A DNA stretch of 64,000 nucleotides from Pelagibius litoralis (GTDB lineage: Bacteria > Pseudomonadota > Alphaproteobacteria > Kiloniellales > Kiloniellaceae). Below are positions 13,159 through 60,760 of this stretch, piece by piece; the stretch's first letter is position 1, and each line of letters starts with the position of its first letter. Position numbers and translations under genes: made by a program. Location of the stretch: positions 62,001 through 126,000 of the forward strand of contig NZ_JAAQPH010000005.1 of NCBI RefSeq assembly GCF_011683915.1, written 5' to 3'. Below the pieces are notes generated by a model. The model worked only from the letters and a program-made list of their open reading frames with translations. It ran no database searches and was not told the DNA's origin.

Positions 13159-14157
13159 ATGCACGTCATGATCATCGGCGCGGTTGGAATGCTTGGAAAG
13201 AAACTCGCCTCCGTCATTGCAAAAACAAGGCAATGCAACGGCCAGAGCGTAACGCGACTGACACTGGTGGACATCGCAGTTGCCGAGACGCCAGAGAACC
13301 CAGCATTCCCGATCGAAAGCCTTGCATTCGATCTATCTCACACAGACACCGCGCCCCTCCTGACGAAAAGACGACCCGACATCATCTTTCATCTGGCCGC
13401 CATCGTGTCCGGCGAGGCCGAAAACGATTTCGAGAAAGGCTACGCCATCAACCTCGATGGCACGCGCCATCTGTTCGAAGCGATCCGCCGCGAAAGGGAT
13501 AGAAACGGCAATGCAGCAGACTATCGGCCGCGTGTCGTCTTCACCTCTTCGATTGCCGTGTTCGGCGGCCCCTATCCCGATACGATCTCCGATACGTTCT
13601 TCCGCACGCCGCAAACCAGCTACGGCACACAAAAGGCCATCGGCGAACTACTACTTGAAGACTATACCCGGCGTGGATTCATGGACGGTGTTGGCCTTAG
13701 ATTGCCCACAATCTGCATCCGTCCCGGCCTGCCCAACAAAGCCGCCTCAGGCTTCTTTTCAAGCATTCTGCGTGAACCGCTTGTCGGTCAGCCAGCGACC
13801 CTGCCCGTTGAAGATACTGTGCGTCATTGGCATGCCAGTCCGCGCGCCGCTGTCCGGTTCCTGCTTCACGCCGGCACGATGGACAGCTCCCGTTTGGGGC
13901 ATCGGCGAACGCTCAACATGCCGGGACTGTCGGCGACCGTCGCCGAGCAGGTAGAAGCACTGCGAACCGTAGCCGGCAACGATGCCATTGCGCTGATAAG
14001 ACGAGAACCCAACCCGGATATCGCGGCCATCATTGCCGCATGGCCCCAAGACTTCACCGCCGATCGTGCCACCGACCTTGGTTTCAGGGCAGAGCGTTCG
14101 TTCGAAGATATCATTGCCGTTCACATAGAAGATGAACTGGGAGCTACTTCGGCGTAA
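13159..14157 (+). CDS. denD: NAD-dependent epimerase/dehydratase, D-erythronate dehydrogenase (DenD)-like
   Basis: 332-residue extended short-chain dehydrogenase. The NAD-binding GAVGMLGKKLA is at the N-terminus, the conserved HLAAIVSGEAE near residue 75, the catalytic Ser in TSSIAVFG and the YxxxK pair in SYGTQKA. The HLAAIVSGEAE and RLPTICIRPG segments resemble DenD, which oxidises D-erythronate at C2. I start at ATG 13159 because AGGAAAG lies 9 nt upstream. The kinase and decarboxylase usually found with DenD are absent here. The TRAP neighbours support sugar-acid catabolism, but the true substrate may differ. Confidence 0.75.
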   Translation: MHVMIIGAVGMLGKKLASVIAKTRQCNGQSVTRLTLVDIAVAETPENPAFPIESLAFDLSHTDTAPLLTKRRPDIIFHLAAIVSGEAENDFEKGYAINLDGTRHLFEAIRRERDRNGNAADYRPRVVFTSSIAVFGGPYPDTISDTFFRTPQTSYGTQKAIGELLLEDYTRRGFMDGVGLRLPTICIRPGLPNKAASGFFSSILREPLVGQPATLPVEDTVRHWHASPRAAVRFLLHAGTMDSSRLGHRRTLNMPGLSATVAEQVEALRTVAGNDAIALIRREPNPDIAAIIAAWPQDFTADRATDLGFRAERSFEDIIAVHIEDELGATSA

Positions 14158-14169
14158 CCAACGGCTTGA

Positions 14170-14667
14170 TCAAGCAGACACTGTCACAGGAATGAGCTGG
14201 TTGGATCGCCGGACCGGCTGATGCGACTTCTCCGCCCGATTGTTCGCGCGCAGGCCCTGGTCGTGAACCGCCGACAGCCGTTCTTTACGGATGGCGACGG
14301 CGTAGGATTCTAGCTTGTCCGTGGTGATCCGCTTCAGCGCGAAGCCCTGCTCCTTCAGCAACTTCCGGATCAACCGTCTCGCCGATTTAGCGCAGCGCCG
14401 TGGCTGCATCAGAAAGTCCAGCACCTCAGCGCGCAGACTACTGCTGCGAAGAGTGACGGCAACCAATCACCCGAATTTCAGGAACCAGCGCCGCACCGTT
14501 TCGTTCGATACATCGATGCCACGTTCGCTCGGCAGGTCCTCGACATCACGAAATGACAGGGTGAACCGGGTGTAGAGGCAGGCTGCGTATTGAATGATCG
14601 CCGGCGAAAAACGATGACGCTTGAAGGGAATCGGGATCATCGGGAGACCGTAGCGACCTCTGCCCAC
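14170..14667 (-). pseudogene. IS6-type transposase relic with internal deletion
   Basis: An N-terminal part (14467-14667) contains FSPAIIQYAACLYTRFTLS and GIDVSNETVRRWFLKFG, then a stop. A second part (14170-14466) resumes at AEVLDFLMQPRR, RLIRKLLKEQGFALKRIT and ERLSAVHDQGLRANNRAEKS. The catalytic segment that should carry the first two Asp residues (HLDE region) is missing, and the C-terminus ends early. It marks the right end of the TRAP/DenD island and contains the right copy of the 77-bp repeat. Confidence 0.75.
14214..14290. repeat. Right copy of 77-bp direct repeat
   Basis: Matches 8255-8331 at about 72 of 77 positions in the same orientation. Together the copies bracket gntR, the TAXI-TRAP genes and denD, about 5.9 kb. 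Confidence 0.7.
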
Positions 14668-14879
14668 CTCGGCTACCGACTTAGTGTCTCAACGCCCCTA
14701 CATCAGACCATAGACCCGGCCACGGACCCGGATGCGCTAACGATAACGATTTAATATATTCCAAATCTCGTATACGATGCCGTTGTCGTTAGCTCAATAT
14801 TGTCGGAAGACCCTGCGGTTTGCCAAAACGGCCTGCATGTCGGCGGGCCAAGGCCTCGCCGGCAAATTGAGCGGCTGAA

Positions 14880-16517
14880 TTGTCGTCGGACAGCTTTGCA
14901 GAGAATGATCCACATGCGCGTACAGCTTTCCGTCTTTGCTCTATTGCGTGCCTCAGTTTCGTCCGGCGGCGCAAAGCGAACTGCGGCCGATCCAACTTGC
15001 TAGGCCGTCGTCCAGACCCGCTACGTGCGGCAAATGCTTTTGCGATCTTTGCCGTATCCGCCTGCGGGCTCATCGTTGAGATCACCGCCGGGCGGATGAT
15101 GGCCCCTTACCTGGGCATGTCCCTCTATACCTGGACGGCCATCATCGCCGTGGTGCTGGCCGGATTCTCCGCCGGTCACTGGTTCGGCGGCTGGGTCGCC
15201 GAGCGGAACACTGCAAGAGCCTATCTCTGGCTCGCCGCGACCATGACCCTGGGTGCCGCGAGCACAACGGCAAGTCTTTGGTTGGTGCGGCTGCTTTCCG
15301 GGCCTGTCCTGTCGCTACCGATGGACAGGGTCGCGCAGATCTCAGCGCTCACCTTCGCCGTTTTCTTTCTACCCAGTTTCTGCGCCGGCGTGCCCTCGCC
15401 CGTGCTGTCGAAAGTCGCCATCGACCAAGCCCCGCATCGTGCCGGCCGAACGCTGGGCCTGATGTTCGCTCTCAGTGCTCTGGGTGCCATTGCCGGAACC
15501 CTGCTGGCCGGTTTCCTGTTCATATCCTGGATCGGCACGTCCGGTACCATCTTGGCAATCGCCGCCGTTTACCTGACCCTTGCCGTGCTGTTCTTTTCGC
15601 TGGGCGCAAAGGCGCTTCGTGCCATCGCCGCGTCCCTGGCCCTGCTGCTTGCCGCCATCTCTGGTATTGCCGGCCTCGCCCGCATTGCCTCGCCCTGCGA
15701 CGTCGAGAGCGACTACTACTGCATTCGTGTCGTCGACATGACGGAGGATCTTGGGGTTGAGGCCAGGCTGCTTGTCCTCGATCATCTGGGCCATGGCATA
15801 AATCTGAGGGACCAGCCAAGCGGGCTGGTCAGCCCCTACGTCGAGATCATCGATCTTCTCGCCCGTGCTTATCTCGGTGAAAACTCGGACGCTTCAGCCT
15901 ACTTTATCGGTGGTGGCGCCTATACGCTCCCCCGTGCCTGGGCATCATCGGGATGGACCGGTGAGATAACGGTCGCCGAGATCGACCCCGCGGTCACGGC
16001 CGCGGCAGCTTCGTCTCTTTGGGTGGACACAAGCGCCTTCCGCATTGTCCATGACGATGCCCGCGCTGCGCTTTCACGCCAGCCCGCCGAAAGTCTGGAC
16101 GTCATCGTCGGTGATGCCTTCAAGGACATTGCGGTGCCGGCCCACCTGATGACGCGGGAATTTGCTCAGCTTGTCGAACGGCGTTTGTCCTCAGACGGCA
16201 TTTATCTGATGAACCTTGTCGACCGGGGCGATCGGCTCACGGCCCTTTTCTCGATGGTCACGACCCTTCAGCAGGTCTTCCCTGTGGTGGAGGTCTGGGT
16301 CGATCGCGAGCAAGCCGCGGTCTCCGGGCGAATCACCTTCGTCATCCTGGCGGCGCAAAGACCAAGCTCAAGCGATCGCCTATGGTCGCTGTCGGACCCC
16401 GATCGGCAATACTTGCGGTGGCCGGCGCATGATCTCGACGCCAAGGTCGCCGCCGCGGAGGTTCCGATCCTGAGCGATGACTTCACGCCGGTCGACCGTC
16501 TATTGAACCTGCAATGA
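14880..16517 (+). CDS. Fused membrane protein with spermidine synthase-like domain
   Basis: 545 residues if the TTG at 14880 is used. Homology-like sequence begins only at about residue 48 (LRAANAFAIFAVSACGLIVE), so the true start may be later. Residues 50-270 hold about seven hydrophobic helices. The C-terminal half is a SAM-binding, spermidine-synthase-like fold with FIGGGAYTLPRAW near residue 345, VAEIDPAV near 372 and VGDAFKD near 415. Such fusions are widespread but their reaction is mostly uncharacterised. The gene converges on cbbZ, with ends overlapping by 18 nt. Confidence 0.75.
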   Translation: MSSDSFAENDPHARTAFRLCSIACLSFVRRRKANCGRSNLLGRRPDPLRAANAFAIFAVSACGLIVEITAGRMMAPYLGMSLYTWTAIIAVVLAGFSAGHWFGGWVAERNTARAYLWLAATMTLGAASTTASLWLVRLLSGPVLSLPMDRVAQISALTFAVFFLPSFCAGVPSPVLSKVAIDQAPHRAGRTLGLMFALSALGAIAGTLLAGFLFISWIGTSGTILAIAAVYLTLAVLFFSLGAKALRAIAASLALLLAAISGIAGLARIASPCDVESDYYCIRVVDMTEDLGVEARLLVLDHLGHGINLRDQPSGLVSPYVEIIDLLARAYLGENSDASAYFIGGGAYTLPRAWASSGWTGEITVAEIDPAVTAAAASSLWVDTSAFRIVHDDARAALSRQPAESLDVIVGDAFKDIAVPAHLMTREFAQLVERRLSSDGIYLMNLVDRGDRLTALFSMVTTLQQVFPVVEVWVDREQAAVSGRITFVILAAQRPSSSDRLWSLSDPDRQYLRWPAHDLDAKVAAAEVPILSDDFTPVDRLLNLQ

Positions 16518-26469: not shown

Positions 26470-27183
26470 TCAAGAAGTCGGCGGTCGAGCCTTTCCAGAT
26501 GCCCTGCCCACCCCCTCGGTGAGCACGATCAACGACAGGGCAATAACGGCTCCACCGGTGGCCAGGACGGTATCTTTCTGCGCATCGAAGACATCACCCT
26601 GGGTACCGAGAAAGGCCATGGCAGCATCCGGACTAAGGATCATGGCGACGCCCCATTCGAGCATCTCATAGATGCCGCTGAAGGCCAGAACGACCGCAAA
26701 GGCAATGCCATAGCTGCACCAGCCGGCAAGGCGCGTGCCGCGCCTCACCACCTCCCAAAGCGGATAACTGCACATCAGACCAAAGAGGAAATGCACAACC
26801 CGGTCGTAGTGGTTGCGCTCCCACTCAAGAAGCTCGACGAGCCACCAGCCGAAGGGCGTCTTCGAATAGGTATAGTGGGCACCGACGGCGTGCAGCCCGA
26901 GAAAAACCGCCAGCAGCAGGTAGGACAAGCTCGAGAGCGGAAAGGCGCGATAGGTCACTGCCAGCAGACCGACGAAGAAGAACACCAGTAGGTTTTCCAG
27001 AAACCAGTCAAAGCGGTTGACAGGCGCGATGGCCAGCGCCAGCCACAGCAGCACATAGGCGAGGGTTATCCCCTGCAGCAGACGGTTGCCGGCGAAATCA
27101 GCCGTAACCGGGCCTGCGGCGGTGGTGAACAGTCGATATCCCCTATCCGCTGCTTTTGGCGGCCAGATAGGCGATGGCACCAT
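26470..27183 (-). CDS. DUF2238 (YjdF-like) integral membrane protein
   Basis: About 237 residues with six or so hydrophobic helices. The family signature HAVGAHYTYS, HYDRVVHFLFG and YEMLEWG is clear. The function of this family is unknown. Its only in-frame ATG (27183) lies 41 nt inside the acyl carrier protein gene; a later non-AUG start near residue 18 is possible. It is the last member of the acs-dehydrogenase-ACP cluster, so a membrane role connected to that pathway is inferred from position alone. Confidence 0.85.
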   Translation of the reverse strand: MVPSPIWPPKAADRGYRLFTTAAGPVTADFAGNRLLQGITLAYVLLWLALAIAPVNRFDWFLENLLVFFFVGLLAVTYRAFPLSSLSYLLLAVFLGLHAVGAHYTYSKTPFGWWLVELLEWERNHYDRVVHFLFGLMCSYPLWEVVRRGTRLAGWCSYGIAFAVVLAFSGIYEMLEWGVAMILSPDAAMAFLGTQGDVFDAQKDTVLATGGAVIALSLIVLTEGVGRASGKARPPTS

Positions 27184-27391
27184 CGATCGTCACCAACTCG
27201 CCATAGTCAGATTCGGGAATGTCGAGTCCCAGCCGTTTGTGCAAGGCGATAACCAAGTTCAGCAAATCCATGGAATCGATATCCATGGCGTCGCGGATAT
27301 CTTCCTGGGGATCGATCTCGGCCGGGTCCCACTCCGGGGCGATGTTGCCCAGTTCTTCGAAGAACACACCACGTGCCTCGTCGGGGGTCAT
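27143..27391 (-). CDS. Acyl carrier protein, stand-alone
   Basis: 82 residues. The phosphopantetheine attachment serine is S40 in AMDIDSMDLLNL, equivalent to the DSL motif. Acidic residues dominate, as in carrier proteins. Its ATG overlaps the E2 stop by 4 nt (ATGA). This is not the primary fatty-acid AcpP context: fab genes are absent. A carrier protein coupled to a 2-oxoacid dehydrogenase E2 suggests it receives or donates an acyl group in this pathway; this is inference. Confidence 0.88.
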   Translation of the reverse strand: MTPDEARGVFFEELGNIAPEWDPAEIDPQEDIRDAMDIDSMDLLNLVIALHKRLGLDIPESDYGELVTIDGAIAYLAAKSSG

Positions 27392-28563
27392 AACGCTTCG
27401 GGCTCCTGTAACAGACGGTCGATCTCGTTCAAGAAAACGGCGCCCCGGTGACCGTCGCTCACCCTGTGATCGCCTGCCAGGGTGACCGTCACGACGGGCC
27501 TGAGCGCTATCTCACCCGCAACCGGCCAGGGGCGCTCAACCACCTTCCCGATACCGAGGATCGCCACCTGTGGCGGGTAAATGATGGAGAACATGCCCTC
27601 GACCCCGCGCTCGCCAAGGCTGGAGACTGTTACCGTCGGGGCCGACAGTTCGGAACTGCGCAGGCTGCCGGTCCTGACCCGCGCCACCAGGTCGCGCATG
27701 CGCGTCATAATCTCGTCGAGGCCGAGTTGATCCGTGTTGTGGATGGCCGGCGCCACCAGACCGCCGCCGCGGATCGACACGGCAGTGCCGATATGGATAT
27801 CGGCGTTCGCCAGAAAGCCCTCCTCGCCGTAAAAACCGTTAAAGGCCTTGTGCTTGGTCAAGGCCAGCGCCACGGCCTTGAGCAGCAGCGCACCCATCAG
27901 CAGGCGCTCGATCGGTTCGCGTGCGGCGTTGGTCCGTTCCAGCCAGGCTGCAGCGGCAGCCAGATCCACATCGTGGGAGAGGTAGTAGTGCGGGATTTCC
28001 TGCTTGGACCGGCTCATTGCCGCGGCAATGGCTTTGCGCATCTCTTCCAGATCCACACCTCGGGGCCTGACCTTCGCCGGAGCGGTGCCTGGCGCCGGCC
28101 CGCTGCCCGCCCCCAGGTCGGACAACACCACCGCACCGCCCGGGCCGCTGCCGGTGAGGACATCCAGATCGAGGCCGCGCTCGGCAGCCAGCTTACGCGC
28201 CGCCGGCGAGGCCAGGACGCCCGCGGCGCCTGGCAACGGCAGAGCTTGCGGCGGCGGGGCTGGTATCGGCAGCGGCGCCGGTTCCGGCACTTGCGGTGGC
28301 GCCGCTTCAGGCGGCGGCGCGGTTTCGCCAGCGCCCTTCAGGCGCGCCAGCGGCATGCCCACCGGCACGGTCTGACCGATCTCGACAAGCTGCTCTTCAA
28401 TCACGCCGTCTTCGAAGATCTCGATCTCGATCGCACCTTTCTGGGTTTCCACCACGGCCACGATATCGCCGCGATGCACGGCCTCCCCAGGCGCTTTCAA
28501 CCATTCGATAAGAGTGCCGGCCTCCATGTCGGAGCCAAGCGACGGCATGAGGAATTCGCTCAT
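27388..28563 (-). CDS. 2-oxoacid dehydrogenase E2, dihydrolipoamide acyltransferase
   Basis: 391 residues. The lipoyl domain occupies residues 1-78 with K42 in [11 protein letters not shown], a variant of the usual ETDKA. A Pro/Ala linker leads to a peripheral-subunit-binding domain near residues 113-147 ([17 protein letters not shown]). The catalytic domain ends with [14 protein letters not shown], carrying the active-site His and Asp. It transfers the acyl group from lipoate to an acceptor, normally CoA. The start overlaps the E1 stop by 4 nt. No E3 gene is nearby. Confidence 0.92.
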
Positions 28564-30554
28564 GTCCGGTGCAGCGTACGTTTGGCAGCAGCGACAATGT
28601 CCGCCGGCTGCGGCAGGGAGGCCTGCTCCAGATGCCGCGGATAGGGAATCGGCACCTCGGCACCGCAGACGCGTTCCACCGGCGCATCCAGCGACCAGAA
28701 ACACTCCTCCGTGATTCGTGCCGAAATCTCCGCCGCCAGGCTGCCGGAGCGCCAGCCATCGTCGACGATGACGGCACGCCGTGTCTTGGCGACCGAGGCG
28801 GCAATGGTTGCGTCGTCCAGCGGCCTGAGGCAACGCAGGTCTACGACCTCCGCCTCGATGCCCGCCTCGGCCAATTCCTCCGCCGCGGTCATGGCCCGCC
28901 ACAGGCCGCCGCCATAGGCGATGACCGTCACATCCTTGCCGGTGCGGCGCAGCGCCGCCTGCCACACGCTTTCCGGCGAAAGCCCAATGGAGGCATCCGC
29001 TTCGGCGCGGCGATTGTAGAGCATGACGTTCTCGAAAATCAGCACCGGATCGGGGTCGGCCAGTGCCGGAGCCAGCATGGCGCGTGCATCGGCCACGGTG
29101 GCCGGCGCCAGAATCTTGATGCCGGGAATATGCGCGAACCAGCCTTCCAGGCTGTGCGAATGCTGCGCCGCCAATTGCTTGCCGGCGCCGGTCGCCATGC
29201 GGATCACCAGCGGCACACCGAACTGCCCACCGGACATGTGGCGCAGGGTCGCCGCCGAGTTAAGAATCTGATCGAGCGCCAGCAAGCTGAAGTTCACCGT
29301 CATGACCTCGACGATCGGCCGCATGCCACCCAAAGCAGCACCAATGCCAGCGCCAGTGAAACCGGATTCCGACAGCGGCGTATCGCGAATACGCTCCGGC
29401 CCGAATTCATCCAACAATCCCATGGAAACCGCGTAGCAACCGCCGTAGTGAGCAACGTCCTCGCCCATCAGGAAGACCCGCTCGTCCCGGGTCAGTGCTT
29501 CGCGCAGGGCTTCGCGCATGGCCTCGCGATAGGTCATCTCCGGTGGCGGCGCAGCGGCTGCTTTAACAGCCGTATCGGCCGCGCCGTCGGCATAGGTATC
29601 GGCGAGCAGGTTTTCGACCGGCTCCCAGGTTCCCTGTTCGGCGAAATCCACCGCGACCTGGACCTCCGCCGCCACTTCCGCCTCCATGGCCTCGACATCG
29701 CTGCCGTGCAGGATGCCGGTTTCGCGCAGCCAGGTCTGGTAGCGCAGGATCGGCCCGTGCTCTTTCCATTTTTCGACCTCGCCCTTCTCGCGGTAGAGCT
29801 GGGCGTCGAACATCGAGTGTGCGCGGAAGCGGTAGGTGCGGCATTCCAGGAAGCGCGGCTTGCCTTCGGTCCGGATCGCCTCGACCGCGGCCTGGGCGGC
29901 CGCCTCCACCGCCACCACATCCATGCCGTCGACGACCTCGGAGGCAATGCGGTAGCTTTCGGCTTTCTTGTGGATATCGGTCTCGGACTCGGAGATCTCC
30001 AAGGCCGTGCCCATGGCATAGAGATTGTTTTCGCAAACGAAGAACACCGGGAGGTTCCACAAGGCCGCCAGGTTCAGGCTCTCGTGGAACTCGCCTTCGG
30101 CCACCGCGCCTTCGCCGAAGAAGCAGGCGGTGACGCGATCGCGCCCCTGCAGTTTGTCGGCCAGCGCCAGGCCCACAGCGAGCGGCAGTCCGCCGCCGAC
30201 GATGGCGTTGCCGCCGTAGAAATTGGTTGCCGCATCGAAGATGTGCATGGAGCCGCCGCGCCCGCCGCTGCAACCCTCCTGCTTGCCGTACATCTCCGCC
30301 ATGACACCGTCCATAGAGACGCCGCGGGCCAGGGCGTGGCCGTGCTCGCGGTAAGTGGCGACCACCGCGTCATCGGGGGCGAGCGCCTGCATGACGCCGA
30401 CGGCGTTGGCCTCCTCACCGATGTAGAGATGTAGAAAGCCCCTGATCTTTTCCTGGGTATAGAGCTCGGCGCATTTCTCTTCGAAACGGCGGATACGCAG
30501 CATCTCTCTCAGCAAATGCAGAGCGTGCTCACGGCTTAGGTGCGGTTTGCTCAT
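28560..30554 (-). CDS. 2-oxoacid dehydrogenase E1, alpha-beta fusion
   Basis: 664 residues. Residues 1-325 are the alpha subunit ([30 protein letters not shown], and thiamine-diphosphate segment [17 protein letters not shown] with NN). An Ala/Pro linker around 330-345 joins the beta subunit ([37 protein letters not shown]). It decarboxylates a 2-oxoacid and acylates lipoate on E2; pyruvate is the best guess but acetoin- or branched-type substrates cannot be excluded. Overlaps of 4 nt with the gene on each side show tight coupling. Confidence 0.92.
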
Positions 30555-32362
30555 CGCTCGTCGCTTTCCAGGGTCGAGAGATCACCTTCCGGCAAACCCA
30601 ACTCTCGCGCCTTCAAGAGGCGGCGCATGATCTTGCCGCTGCGGGTCTTCGGCAGGTTGGCACGGAATGCGATGTCACGCGGCGCCACCGCGGGCCCCAA
30701 GCGCTTGCGGGCATGGCCCAGCAGTTCCCTGCGGAGGGCATCGCTCGCCTCGAACTGGGGCTTAAGGCCGACATAAGCCTTCACAACCTCTCCGGCCGTC
30801 TCGTCGGGAATGCCGATCACCCCGACCTCCGCCACAGCGGGGTGTTCCATGAGGGCGCTCTCCACCTCGAAGGGGCCGATCAGGTGGCCGGCACTCTTGA
30901 TGACGTCGTCGGCGCGGCCGACGAACCAGAAGTAGCCATCAGAATCGCGCATCGCCAAGTCGCCGGAAAGATACCAGCCGTCGGCGAAGCACTTCTGGTA
31001 GCGCGCCTCCTCGTCCAGGTAACCGCGCATCATCGATGGCCAGCCGGGCCGCAACGCCAATTCACCCATGGCCATCGGTTTGGCGATTTCCTCGACACCG
31101 CCGTCGGGCCTGCGCTCGACGATGCCGGCGGTGATGCCGGGCAAAGGCCGCCCCATGGAGCCGGGCTTCACGTCCTCTGCGGCGAAGTTGGCGATCATGA
31201 TGCCACCGGTTTCGGTCTGCCACCAGTTGTCATGAAACGGCTTGCCGAAAGTTTCCTGGCTCCAGACTACCGCTTCGGGATTGAGCGGCTCGCCGACGCT
31301 GGCGAGAAAGCGTAAGCTGCTAAGATCGTAGCGGTCAGCGACCCCCCGTCCGGCGCGCATCAGCATGCGGATTGCAGTCGGCGCCGTGTACCAAACCGTG
31401 ACTTTGCGGTCCTGGATGATGCCGTACCAGCGCTCGGCGTCGAACTCCGCCTCGTCGACGATCATGGTAACGCCGTTGGTTAGCGGCGCGACTATGCCGT
31501 AGGAGGTGCCGGTCACCCATCCTGGGTCGGCGGTACACCAGTAGACGTCGCCAGGGTGCAGGTCGAGGGCATAGCGCCCCGTGATGTGATGCGCCACCAC
31601 GGCCTCGTGCACATGGATTGCGCCCTTGGGTTTGCCGGTGGTGCCGCTGGTAAAATGCAACAGTGCCCGATCCTCGGGCTCGGTTTCGGCGATCTCGAAG
31701 ACCTCGGATGCCTCGGCCAGGGCGGCTGTGAGGTCGACGGTATCCGGCGGCAGCGCCTTGTCGGTGGTGCGCAGCAACAGCACGAGACGCAGATCTGGCA
31801 GTTCGCTGCGCCAAGCCGCCACTTTGCGGCTGTAGAGCCTATCGGTGGTTACCAGCGCCTGGGCGCGGCCGATGGTCATCCGGGCTTTCAGGGGCTCCGG
31901 CCCGAAGGCGGAGAACAGCGGCGAAAAGACGTTGCCGTTCTTCCAGGCTCCAAGTGCCGTCAGATACAACTCCGGTCGTCGCCCCATAAGCCCGAATACA
32001 ACGGCACCGCGCTCCAGCCCGAAGCCCTTCAGCACAGAGGCAAAGCGATTGCTCTGCGCAGCCAGTGCACCATAGGTAAAGTCCTGCTGGCCTCCATCCT
32101 TGCCAAGCCAGCGCAGAGCCACCTTCTCGCTGCGCCCATGCGCCAAATGCCGGTCGACTGCCTCAAAAGCGATGTTAAGGCCGCCGCCAGGCAGGCCGTC
32201 CAATTCCGCGCGGGCTTCCAGCCAGGAGAAACGACCGTAGACGCTGTCATAATCGCGCAGATTAGCGCGCTGCAGCAGGGCTGGGTCTTGCTTATGGATA
32301 GTGTCCAATGAAGGCTTGCTCCGGCGGTTCGGGATGCCGAGTTCCAGTCGAAGCATACTCAA
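30551..32362 (-). CDS. acsA: Acetyl-CoA synthetase-like acyl-CoA ligase
   Basis: 603 residues, shorter than the 650-residue canonical Acs. The AMP-binding loop [16 protein letters not shown] is near residue 240, WWQTETGG near 370, the hinge [17 protein letters not shown] near 480, and the C-terminal catalytic lysine in [10 protein letters not shown]. It activates acetate or another short acid to acyl-AMP and then to a CoA (or pantetheine) thioester. It is first in a five-gene overlapping cluster. A degenerate IS6-type element begins about 100 nt upstream of its start. Confidence 0.9.
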
Positions 32363-32462
32363 GCGGTTCCGACAGACCCTCCATGACCTAAATCAAGCCT
32401 CCACTGGGCATTGTCACACGAACGAGCCAGTCAAATTGATGGCGGCGCGTTAGCGTTGTCGC

Positions 32463-33164
32463 GTGTTGAAAACCTCGTATTCCCGCTGTCAGTTTCCTCC
32501 GAGTATCATACAGCACGCGGTCTGGCTGTATCTGCGGTTCAACTTGAGCCTTAGGGACGCCGAGGACCTGCTTGCCGAGCGTGGCTTGGACATCAGCTAC
32601 CAGACAGTCCGCCGTTGGGCCGTGAAATTCGGCACGGCCTATCCTAGTATCTTGCGCCGGCGGCGGACTACACCCAGCGACCGCTGGCATCTGGACGAAA
32701 TGTTCGTTTCGATCGGCGGGCGACGGATGCATTTGTGGCGCGCTGTCGATGCCGCAGGCGAAGTCCGCGACGTCCTGGTTCAGCCGCGGCGCGACAAGCG
32801 CGCAGCCAAGAAGCTGATTCGGAAGCTGCTGAAAAAGCCGGGCATTTCGCCAACATCAGTAGTGACTGACAAGCTTCGCTCCTACGGCGCGGCTCTGAGT
32901 GATCCGGGGCTAAATTGCGTCACAAGACGGGCGGCCGACTGTGCAATCGGGCCGCGAATTCCCATCAGCCGCTACGGCGGCGAGAGCGATCGTGGATCGG
33001 ATTCAAGCGACCAGGATCGACACAGCGATTTCTCTCTGCCCAAGCCGTCGTCTACAACTGCTTCAACCTCCAACGCCACCTCATCTCCAGAAGCACGTTT
33101 CGAACCTTCCGAGACGCGGCATTCACCGAGTGGCGGAAGGCAGTCCAAACGGCGTCATACGAGC
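32463..33164 (+). pseudogene. IS6-type transposase, frameshifted and lacking the catalytic Glu
   Basis: The first frame has the N-terminal helix-turn-helix (LLAERGLDISYQTVRRW), the catalytic segments DRWHLDEMFV and LWRAVDAAGEV with two Asp residues, and RLIRKLL-like AKKLIRKLLKKPGI. At about 32910-32940 homology moves to another frame (CNRAANSHQPLRRRE, QRFLSAQAVVYN, RHLISRSTFRTF). In that frame the expected Glu of NRAENSH is Ala. Both defects make it inactive. It is oriented away from acsA and next to tRNA-Lys. Confidence 0.8.
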
Positions 33165-33381
33165 GTGTTCCCTTGGACCCGTGTACTCACCGCACGAAGA
33201 TGTGCACTGGCGCCCACCGGCCCCAATTGCTGTTGAGCGTTCAGTGCACGCCGGCGGACCAATCTGGCGGATGCGCCCGCCTTGCGTCATCGGCTCACGG
33301 CGGTTTTTCCCAAATGCCGCGCAGGCGGGATTCCAAATGGAAACCCGCACCATTTCAAGTCGTTGACAATCCTGGAGAAAA

Positions 33382-33457
<76 letters not shown>

Positions 33458-60189: not shown

Positions 60190-60383
60190 GGCAGGCCTTT
60201 TCTGTTGATTTGAGTTCCGGTCGATTTCAGTCGCGACAACCGCCAGCCAGGGCCCCGGTGCCGCGGCGGAGCCGAATCGCCTTCGGCAATTCTAGCCTTT
60301 TTGCCCAGATCTGGGCAGTGCTAAGCGCGGGACCATAGGGTTAATGGAGAGAAAAGGGAGCCCGCCAACTTGGCCAGGAGTCC

Positions 60384-60412
60384 TTTCAACGGCCTGAGAA
60401 AGGGCCTATATT
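60384..60412 (+). promoter_or_regulatory. ssrA promoter
   Basis: -35 TTTCAA (60384-60389), 17-nt spacer, -10 TATATT (60407-60412). The predicted transcript start is near 60420, the 5' side of the acceptor piece. Confidence 0.65.
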
Positions 60413-60419
60413 GAATATG

Positions 60420-60760
60420 CCGGTTCGCCGGCTATGGCGCTAAACAGGCTCGTGAAATAAGCGCAACGGACCCGGGGGCAGTACCCGGCGCCTCCACCAT
60501 TTCTGGCCGTTTCACCGAACAGATCGGTGCCTGACGGCGGTTTATGGGGGCGAAATAGGATCGACGTGCGTGGTAAAGATGGGTTTGGTTCCCGGCATGG
60601 TACCGCCGTTATCGGGCCATACTCTAGTTGCGAATGACAACTACGGTGAGGCACGCCTCGCTGCTTAATGCAGTCAGGTTAGCCAAATTAAGTCCTGGGC
60701 TTTCACAAGCTTAGGCGGGGTTCGGGGCGCACCTGGCAACAGAAGCGCCCCACCGGGGCG
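60420..60760 (+). ncRNA. ssrA: tmRNA, circularly permuted two-piece form
   Basis: The acceptor piece (about 60420-60499) comes first and ends with the T-arm CCGGGGGCAGTACCCGG and CGCCTCCACCA. An intervening segment (60500-60545) is removed. The coding piece starts GGGGGCG at 60546, which pairs with CGCCTCC of the acceptor, and includes AAATAGGATCGACG. The tag frame at 60630-60668 follows. This permuted order is typical of alphaproteobacteria. The outer ends are estimated to about 10-20 nt. tmRNA rescues stalled ribosomes and tags the peptide for ClpXP. Confidence 0.93.
60630..60668 (+). other. tmRNA tag reading frame
   Basis: Encodes ANDNYGEARLAA and a TAA stop. The hydrophobic LAA end is the ClpX recognition signal. 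Confidence 0.95.

Follow-up and report, generated by a model that had tools for sequence, protein, structure and literature searches.

A conserved acsA–E1–E2–ACP operon of Pelagibius litoralis: a tentative low-oxygen route to an acetyl thioester

The closest described relatives of the locus considered here are the pyruvate dehydrogenase complex, in its form with an alpha-beta E1 and a mitochondrial-type E2, and the AcsA acetate–CoA ligases of the PRK04319 type. The locus lies in a 64-kb stretch of Pelagibius litoralis contig NZ_JAAQPH010000005.1 (hereafter the window) and encodes an AcsA, an E1, an E2 and a stand-alone acyl carrier protein (ACP), here called the cassette. It resembles the pyruvate dehydrogenase complex in its domain make-up, lipoyl lysine, catalytic histidine and E3-binding domain, and its E1 scores above pyruvate dehydrogenase cut-offs. 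By contrast, the cassette carries acsA and an ACP gene in the operon, has as a rule no lipoamide dehydrogenase (E3) of its own, contains an E2 that falls under the matched curated cut-offs, and exists alongside other E2-containing complexes. PRK04319-type AcsA, which we take to be the Bacillus subtilis kind, is usually tied to acetate-control genes such as acuABC; the cassette AcsA exceeds the curated cut-off for this type but is tied to E1, E2 and ACP.

Two further systems invite comparison. DltA is one component of the Dlt D-alanylation system. Others are DltC, DltB, DltX and DltD (PMC12148441). The likeness lies in an adenylating enzyme combined with a stand-alone carrier, to which two related loci (L163 and L164) add an MBOAT protein with an FXYXXF tail and a partner gene; the cassette adenylase is, however, of the acetate type, and no MBOAT match was found beside E1–E2 cassettes or in the window. 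We know of no dedicated ACP in the unit formed by MbcS and the Bkd complex of Staphylococcus aureus. That unit combines a short-chain acyl-CoA synthetase and a 2-oxoacid dehydrogenase for one purpose and is, according to the available part of its description, like the cassette in using both kinds of enzyme to supply an acyl thioester; unlike the cassette, it provides branched acyl groups for fatty acids (PMC10026030).

In the genomic setting that many of its relatives show, the cassette resembles the low-oxygen regulons of FnrL/Dnr, FnrN and OsdR/DevR, in which anaeroboxes or low-oxygen regulators occur with universal stress and small heat-shock proteins; it is not named in the available portions of these regulon accounts (PMC5398030, PMC11784457, PMC5069765). 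No description of the four-gene set was found among the papers listed by searches of an open-access library, which lacks many subscription papers. The enzyme kinds are known; that they are constantly joined to a private ACP, in a low-oxygen context, appears to be new.

The acsA–E1–E2–ACP operon

All five open reading frames (ORFs) of the cluster lie on the minus strand; coordinates are positions in the window. They begin with acsA (30551–32356), encoding a short, AMP-forming acetate–CoA ligase of 601 aa from an ATG start (an alternative TTG start is possible at 32362). The next gene (28560–30554) encodes an alpha-beta fused E1 of the pyruvate dehydrogenase type (664 aa), and is followed by the genes for E2 (27388–28563; 391 aa), the ACP (27143–27391; 82 aa) and a DUF2238 membrane protein. 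Overlaps are 4 nt at acsA/E1, E1/E2 and E2/ACP and 41 nt at ACP/DUF2238. ORF coordinates and profile searches thus bore out the gene order and overlaps given in an earlier note on this DNA, as well as the ETQKG lipoyl motif it had reported in E2.

The names of all five products are backed by Pfam and NCBIfam profiles. AcsA matched the AMP-binding and PRK04319 acetate–CoA ligase models (the latter at 905 bits against a cut-off of 729); among solved structures, an acetyl-CoA synthetase (9g79) is the closest to it. E1 contains E1_dh and transketolase domains and exceeded the cut-offs of TIGR03182 (446.8 bits; 393.85) and NF006667 (389.8; 321), while remaining under that of NF008854 (389.6; 454). 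E2 comprises lipoyl, E3-binding and acyltransferase domains, the last with His366 and Asp370, yet stayed below the cut-offs of all the curated E2 models that it matched, the best being TIGR01349 (223.1 bits against 445). An assignment to acetoin dehydrogenase was rejected, E2 scoring 63.9 bits against a cut-off of 307 on the acetoin-type model NF011457. The ACP passed PF00550 (PP-binding; 33.4 bits against 20.8) and was likewise under the cut-off of every curated ACP family matched (TIGR00517, 28.5 bits against 70.45).

The four genes acsA, E1, E2 and ACP form a conserved operon, a conclusion that we hold with very high confidence. Among the best 80 of 587 relatives, ranked by similarity to the window E1, 67 carried AcsA, E1, E2 and ACP in that order. 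Nine of the remaining 13 reach a contig edge before the ACP; L079 starts inside E1, L077 is interrupted by assembly Ns, L080 contains frameshifts and L057 has no acsA upstream of E1. L077 had been a candidate for an E1–E2 pair without AcsA and ACP and was dropped because of its runs of undetermined bases. The E2 ORF ends in ATGA or GTGA, the usual overlap with the ACP start, at 63 of the 67 complete loci.

Two profile-based samples, of 385 alphaproteobacterial and 398 Pseudomonadota genomes with four ACP-positive genomes in common, are free of the bias of the similarity list. In the former, a cassette ACP directly followed E2 at all 17 strong E2 places (E2 counted at E up to 1e-110 only) in 16 genomes, the profile ends overlapping or lying within ~21 nt. 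Strong ACP places numbered 20 in 19 genomes, four weaker matches near E=1e-13 being excluded; the three beyond the 17 were G105, at a contig start with E2 still visible, and two AcsA–ACP pairs (G345 and G166). In the latter sample, E1 and E2 lay upstream of the ACP in each of 14 ACP-bearing genomes. The earlier note had proposed that the ACP is dedicated to this pathway and had named independent scattering of the gene in relatives as one observation that would speak against it; the 17/17 and 14/14 counts instead make the ACP an integral part of the operon. Given the conservation counts across these samples, the cluster is more than a chance arrangement.

The cassette occurs in six phyla, including Nitrospirota, Chloroflexota, Deinococcota and Myxococcota, and on plasmids of, among others, Rhodococcus, Streptomyces, Cupriavidus, Burkholderia, Sinorhizobium, Azospirillum, Methylocystis and Leisingera (plasmid locus L141, with an ACP-like fragment and no cassette, was kept out of the counts). 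The operon is probably mobile. Its spread is patchy: the 385-genome sample includes two more members of the window's family, and both lack it. Fused E1 is the minority form, with 5 fused, 20 split and 1 incomplete among 26 profile-sampled loci; the E1-similar list, chosen by similarity to the window E1, over-represents the fusion.

Within the P. litoralis genome (99.5% complete), two further E2 genes, two E3 genes above the curated cut-off and a separate true AcpP are encoded outside the operon, which identifies the cassette as an additional complex. The absence of E3 reported in the earlier note therefore holds locally and not for the genome, and the cassette E2 itself has an E3-binding domain. 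At least three E2-domain matches were present in each of 19 host genomes. The cassette is an extra complex and not a housekeeping one.

Low-oxygen and stress context

Annotated plasmid cassettes sit among genes for universal stress proteins, Hsp20, CBS, BON and DUF2267 proteins, FtsH, Lon, phosphoenolpyruvate synthase (ppsA), nicotinate phosphoribosyltransferase or Crp/Fnr regulators. Near the cassette of Rhodococcus DK17 are genes for a dsRBD-fold protein, a GAF histidine kinase and a response regulator, and near that of Streptomyces one for a DUF1876 protein. A universal stress protein is the only stress gene near the cassette in Methylocystis, as is Hsp20 in Burkholderia savannae.

At a loose threshold, stress markers were detected near 20/26 profile-sampled, 39/80 similar and 10/10 plasmid loci, as against none of 20 control loci; at 80 bits, the corresponding counts were 12/26, 31/80, 10/10 and 0/20. 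The markers were drawn from the 80 similar and the plasmid loci, which makes the 39/80 and 10/10 partly circular. None was taken from the 26 profile-sampled loci, some of whose genomes may coincide with those of the 80. The control loci surround other E2 genes, one in each of 18 host genomes and two in that of the window.

TTGA-N6-TCAA, a sequence that works as an FnrN anaerobox in Rhizobium leguminosarum (PMC11784457), recurs upstream of acsA. Halomonas beimenensis (L051) and Hoeflea alexandrii (L056) are among the hosts with an exact copy. Exact copies were found within ~350 nt of acsA at 26 of 72 similar loci and at 10 of the 23 profile-sampled loci with upstream sequence, compared with 0.5% of 3000 control pieces. 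Across 73 similar loci, 29 boxes lay in the 300 nt before acsA and five in the preceding 600 nt; the first 900 nt of the gene itself contained no box. Overall, the neighbouring genes and promoter boxes suggest that a low-oxygen or dormancy role is likely in most hosts.

The window promoter holds a possible FNR/FixK-type box, TTGATTTAGGTCAT, on the minus strand at 32383–32396, 27–40 nt 5′ of the acsA ATG. It has two mismatches; the next best site within 550 nt has four. Alone, this match is weak, as 12.7% of control 361-nt pieces have at most two mismatches. An ORF of the DDE transposase type (32463–33236), part of whose product matches the IS240 family, begins ~107 nt upstream of acsA and is followed by a tRNA-Lys gene at 33382–33457. 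The region is possibly an insertion site that may have altered the acsA promoter. With the imperfect box and the transposase-type ORF close by, regulation of the operon in P. litoralis is uncertain.

The ACP and the fate of the acetyl group

The phosphopantetheine serine of the ACP (Ser40) is kept in all 70 cassette ACPs and in 38/38 sequences of another alignment. Lys42 (lipoyl), His366 and Asp370 of E2 are present in 69/69 cassette proteins; in a wider alignment of 30 rows, Lys42 and His366 occur in 30/30 and Asp370 in 29/30, with histidine in Sinorhizobium fredii (L137). With these E2 residues and the ACP serine conserved, the cassette proteins appear, from their sequences, to be catalytically alive. 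The thiamine motif of E1 is GEG in 63 and GDG in 15 of the 80 similar loci.

Cassette ACPs lack the acidic helix II of fatty-acid ACPs, the mean charge of this helix being −0.27 (n=70; the window ACP, +1) versus −5 in host AcpP (12 recovered from 14 host genomes). Because an acidic helix II is the feature by which fatty-acid enzymes recognize their carrier, the cassette ACP is unlikely to serve those enzymes. By these measures it belongs to a distinct subfamily, predicted to be of a type outside fatty-acid synthesis.

The ACP also occurs with either half of the cassette. It accompanies AcsA without E1 or E2 at L163, L164 and L184 (three genomes of one family) and E1–E2 without an adjacent acsA at L057 only. 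Since it is paired with AcsA alone and with E1–E2 alone, the ACP looks like a shared hub, and AcsA and E2 are both possible candidates for loading it. Apparent fusions of the ACP to E2 or AcsA, considered as a clue to the loader, were rejected, as the long frames are merely open upstream; no ACP fusion was present among the ACP loci of the 398-genome Pseudomonadota sample. Of 15 genomes searched, 14 had a single gene above the PRK04319 cut-off, namely the cassette copy in 12 and the copy of the AcsA–ACP pair in two; lower-scoring Acs-like genes were also present in each of the 15. An AcsA tree was used to ask if the AcsA–ACP pair came about through loss of E1 and E2. In it, 14 of 15 outgroup Acs sequences lie behind a 100/100 branch, the fifteenth (L254) being a long-branch outlier. 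The AcsA–ACP pairs form one clade (100/99), whose position beside the cassette AcsA is not settled.

Taking these features together, we tentatively read the operon as a low-oxygen module that would turn pyruvate or acetate into an acetyl thioester, probably acetyl-ACP. Under this proposal, the four genes would activate two-carbon units mainly under oxygen shortage. E1 would decarboxylate pyruvate and place the resulting acetyl group on the E2 lipoyl arm, which would be re-oxidised by an E3 encoded outside the operon, and AcsA would activate acetate via acetyl-AMP. Both branches would end in a thioester, with the dedicated ACP as the most likely common acceptor, and the resulting acetyl-ACP would stay separate from the CoA and fatty-acid pools. 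An ACP common to both halves would fit a convergence of acetate and pyruvate on acetyl-ACP. As the ACP is integral to the operon in very different bacteria, its loading by AcsA or E2 is a sound hypothesis; that it is the true acetyl acceptor is plausible, and we advance it with reserve. Inferred in this reading are the substrates, the loading of the ACP, how the operon is regulated in P. litoralis and the downstream user.

Several observations weigh against the acetyl-ACP reading. E2 retains the catalytic histidine of CoA-dependent E2s, and its output may be plain acetyl-CoA. The loci compared contain no conserved downstream enzyme to use acetyl-ACP, and the AcsA–ACP pair is known from a single family; its three loci showed neither a stress marker nor an exact anaerobox. 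Stress markers are absent from the whole 64-kb window, and none was found near 6/26 sampled and 41/80 similar loci. An exact anaerobox is missing from 13 of the 23 sampled loci and present at only three of the 10 plasmid loci, none of them actinobacterial, and the box in the window acsA promoter is itself imperfect.

The main rival assigns the ACP a different task: an auxiliary low-oxygen pyruvate dehydrogenase and AcsA would both make ordinary acetyl-CoA, and the ACP would act in structure, assembly or regulation and carry no acetyl group in turnover. E1 and AcsA do score as normal pyruvate and acetate enzymes, E2 keeps its catalytic histidine and E3-binding domain, and mitochondrial ACP is a subunit of other complexes. 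In Halomonas beimenensis (L051), moreover, an E3-like pyridine nucleotide-disulphide oxidoreductase gene (13472–14887) directly follows that of the ACP; its product, the query used for E3 in the neighbour search, scores far under housekeeping E3. Against this rival, the phosphopantetheine serine is invariant (70/70), and the pairing of ACP with AcsA at loci devoid of E2 indicates that the carrier is not simply an E2 subunit. We consider this alternative possible, though on the whole unlikely.

A bolder form of the acetyl-ACP proposal draws on the AcsA–ACP pairs. At L163 and L164, the pair is faced tail-to-tail (convergently) by an MBOAT gene whose product ends in FIYFQF and by a conserved partner gene; a divergent gene encodes an ATP-grasp plus GNAT protein, presumably Pat-like. 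A LuxC-type reductase gene lies in between in L164; L184 has the partner and a LuxC-type reductase gene, and its contig ends before any MBOAT. The partner has no Pfam match, and the label SGNH for it is a guess from position. With one query, MBOAT matches were found neither in the window nor in the 80 similar, 26 sampled and 10 plasmid cassette loci. FXYXXF is the acyl-shuttle motif of bacterial MBOAT–SGNH transferases, and the acyl group that DltB receives comes from a carrier protein (PMC12148441). Seen in one family, the adjacency of an FXYXXF-ending MBOAT to the AcsA–ACP pair makes an acetyl counterpart of Dlt conceivable. In its full form, E2 and the acetyl-AMP-forming enzyme would load one private ACP and maintain a CoA-independent acetyl-ACP pool at low oxygen, which we regard as improbable; if it were true, it would point to acetyl-ACP as a donor in the acetylation of the cell envelope or exopolysaccharide.

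Lipoylation offers a different use for the carrier, which could be a dedicated donor of octanoyl groups for lipoylating the cassette E2 through LipB and LipA. The donor of LipB is octanoyl-ACP (PMC9307952), and E2 requires lipoylation. The ACP, however, is without an acidic helix II and is found with AcsA where E2 is absent, and none of the recurring neighbour families scanned comprised fatty-acid synthesis or lipoylation genes, making this role very unlikely.

Less probable still is an electron sink running partly in reverse, in which acetate would pass through acetyl-ACP to acetyl-lipoyl-E2 and E1 would free acetaldehyde for an alcohol dehydrogenase. Zinc-type alcohol dehydrogenases (>390 bits) do occur near five of the 80 similar loci (L045, L041, L003, L023 and L052) and beside the Streptomyces cassette. 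In L065, L153 and L149, a NiFe-hydrogenase beta subunit gene lies directly downstream of the ACP on the same strand, followed in L065 and L153 by gamma and large subunit genes (L149 is partial at a contig end). The thermodynamics of such a sink are unfavourable, we know of no precedent, and a hydrogenase might just as well oxidise NAD(P)H made by a forward pyruvate dehydrogenase. Together with the E3-like gene of L051, the hydrogenase genes fit a forward reaction whose NADH is to be re-oxidised.

Neighbouring genes and implications

The DUF2238 membrane protein (26470–27183, minus strand; 237 aa) is a local neighbour outside the conserved module. The earlier note had cast it as a membrane partner of the pathway, to be given up if it proved independent of the cassette in relatives; tblastn found no match in the 80 similar, 26 sampled, 10 plasmid and three AcsA–ACP pair loci. 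The suggested link of the cassette to the Calvin (cbb) genes, which do stand beside the cassette in the window, was not conserved as a neighbourhood either: PRK, FBPase and transketolase had no match among 116 related loci, and the sole RuBisCO-like match was at 32% (L008). The idea that the cassette is a chance or lineage-specific cluster near a Calvin operon, for which this adjacency is the argument, can be set aside, being refuted by the conservation counts over six phyla and by the 116 loci with no Calvin gene but that single match.

Besides the four cassette genes, no ORF family occurred in more than 23 loci, and the largest one, in 23, is unnamed by profile. Individual loci differ in their neighbours. 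On the plasmid island of Rhodococcus sp. DK17 that carries the cassette, two ketoacyl-ACP synthase III-like genes (L136, 2156–4118) are possible users of an acyl-ACP. A Cupriavidus plasmid (L138, 7369–11947) encodes two more AMP-binding proteins directly upstream of acsA, and at L057 (402–6293) the gene immediately before E1–E2–ACP encodes phosphoenolpyruvate synthase instead of AcsA. Elsewhere in the window, Rfam and ARAGORN agree on a permuted alphaproteobacterial tmRNA gene at 60380–60754.

Should E2 load the ACP, it would be the first 2-oxoacid dehydrogenase known to us to feed a carrier protein and not CoA. For the distinct ACP subfamily, we found no assigned function. The acetyl-ACP proposal, if true, would also provide a testable acetyl carrier for envelope acetylation: one account of the cellulose acetylation system describes its acetyl donor as unknown (PMC10302187), although PatA accepts acetyl-CoA in vitro (PMC12148441). 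The occurrence of the operon in at least six phyla, on plasmids and often among dormancy genes, suggests a general, unstudied step of two-carbon metabolism without oxygen.

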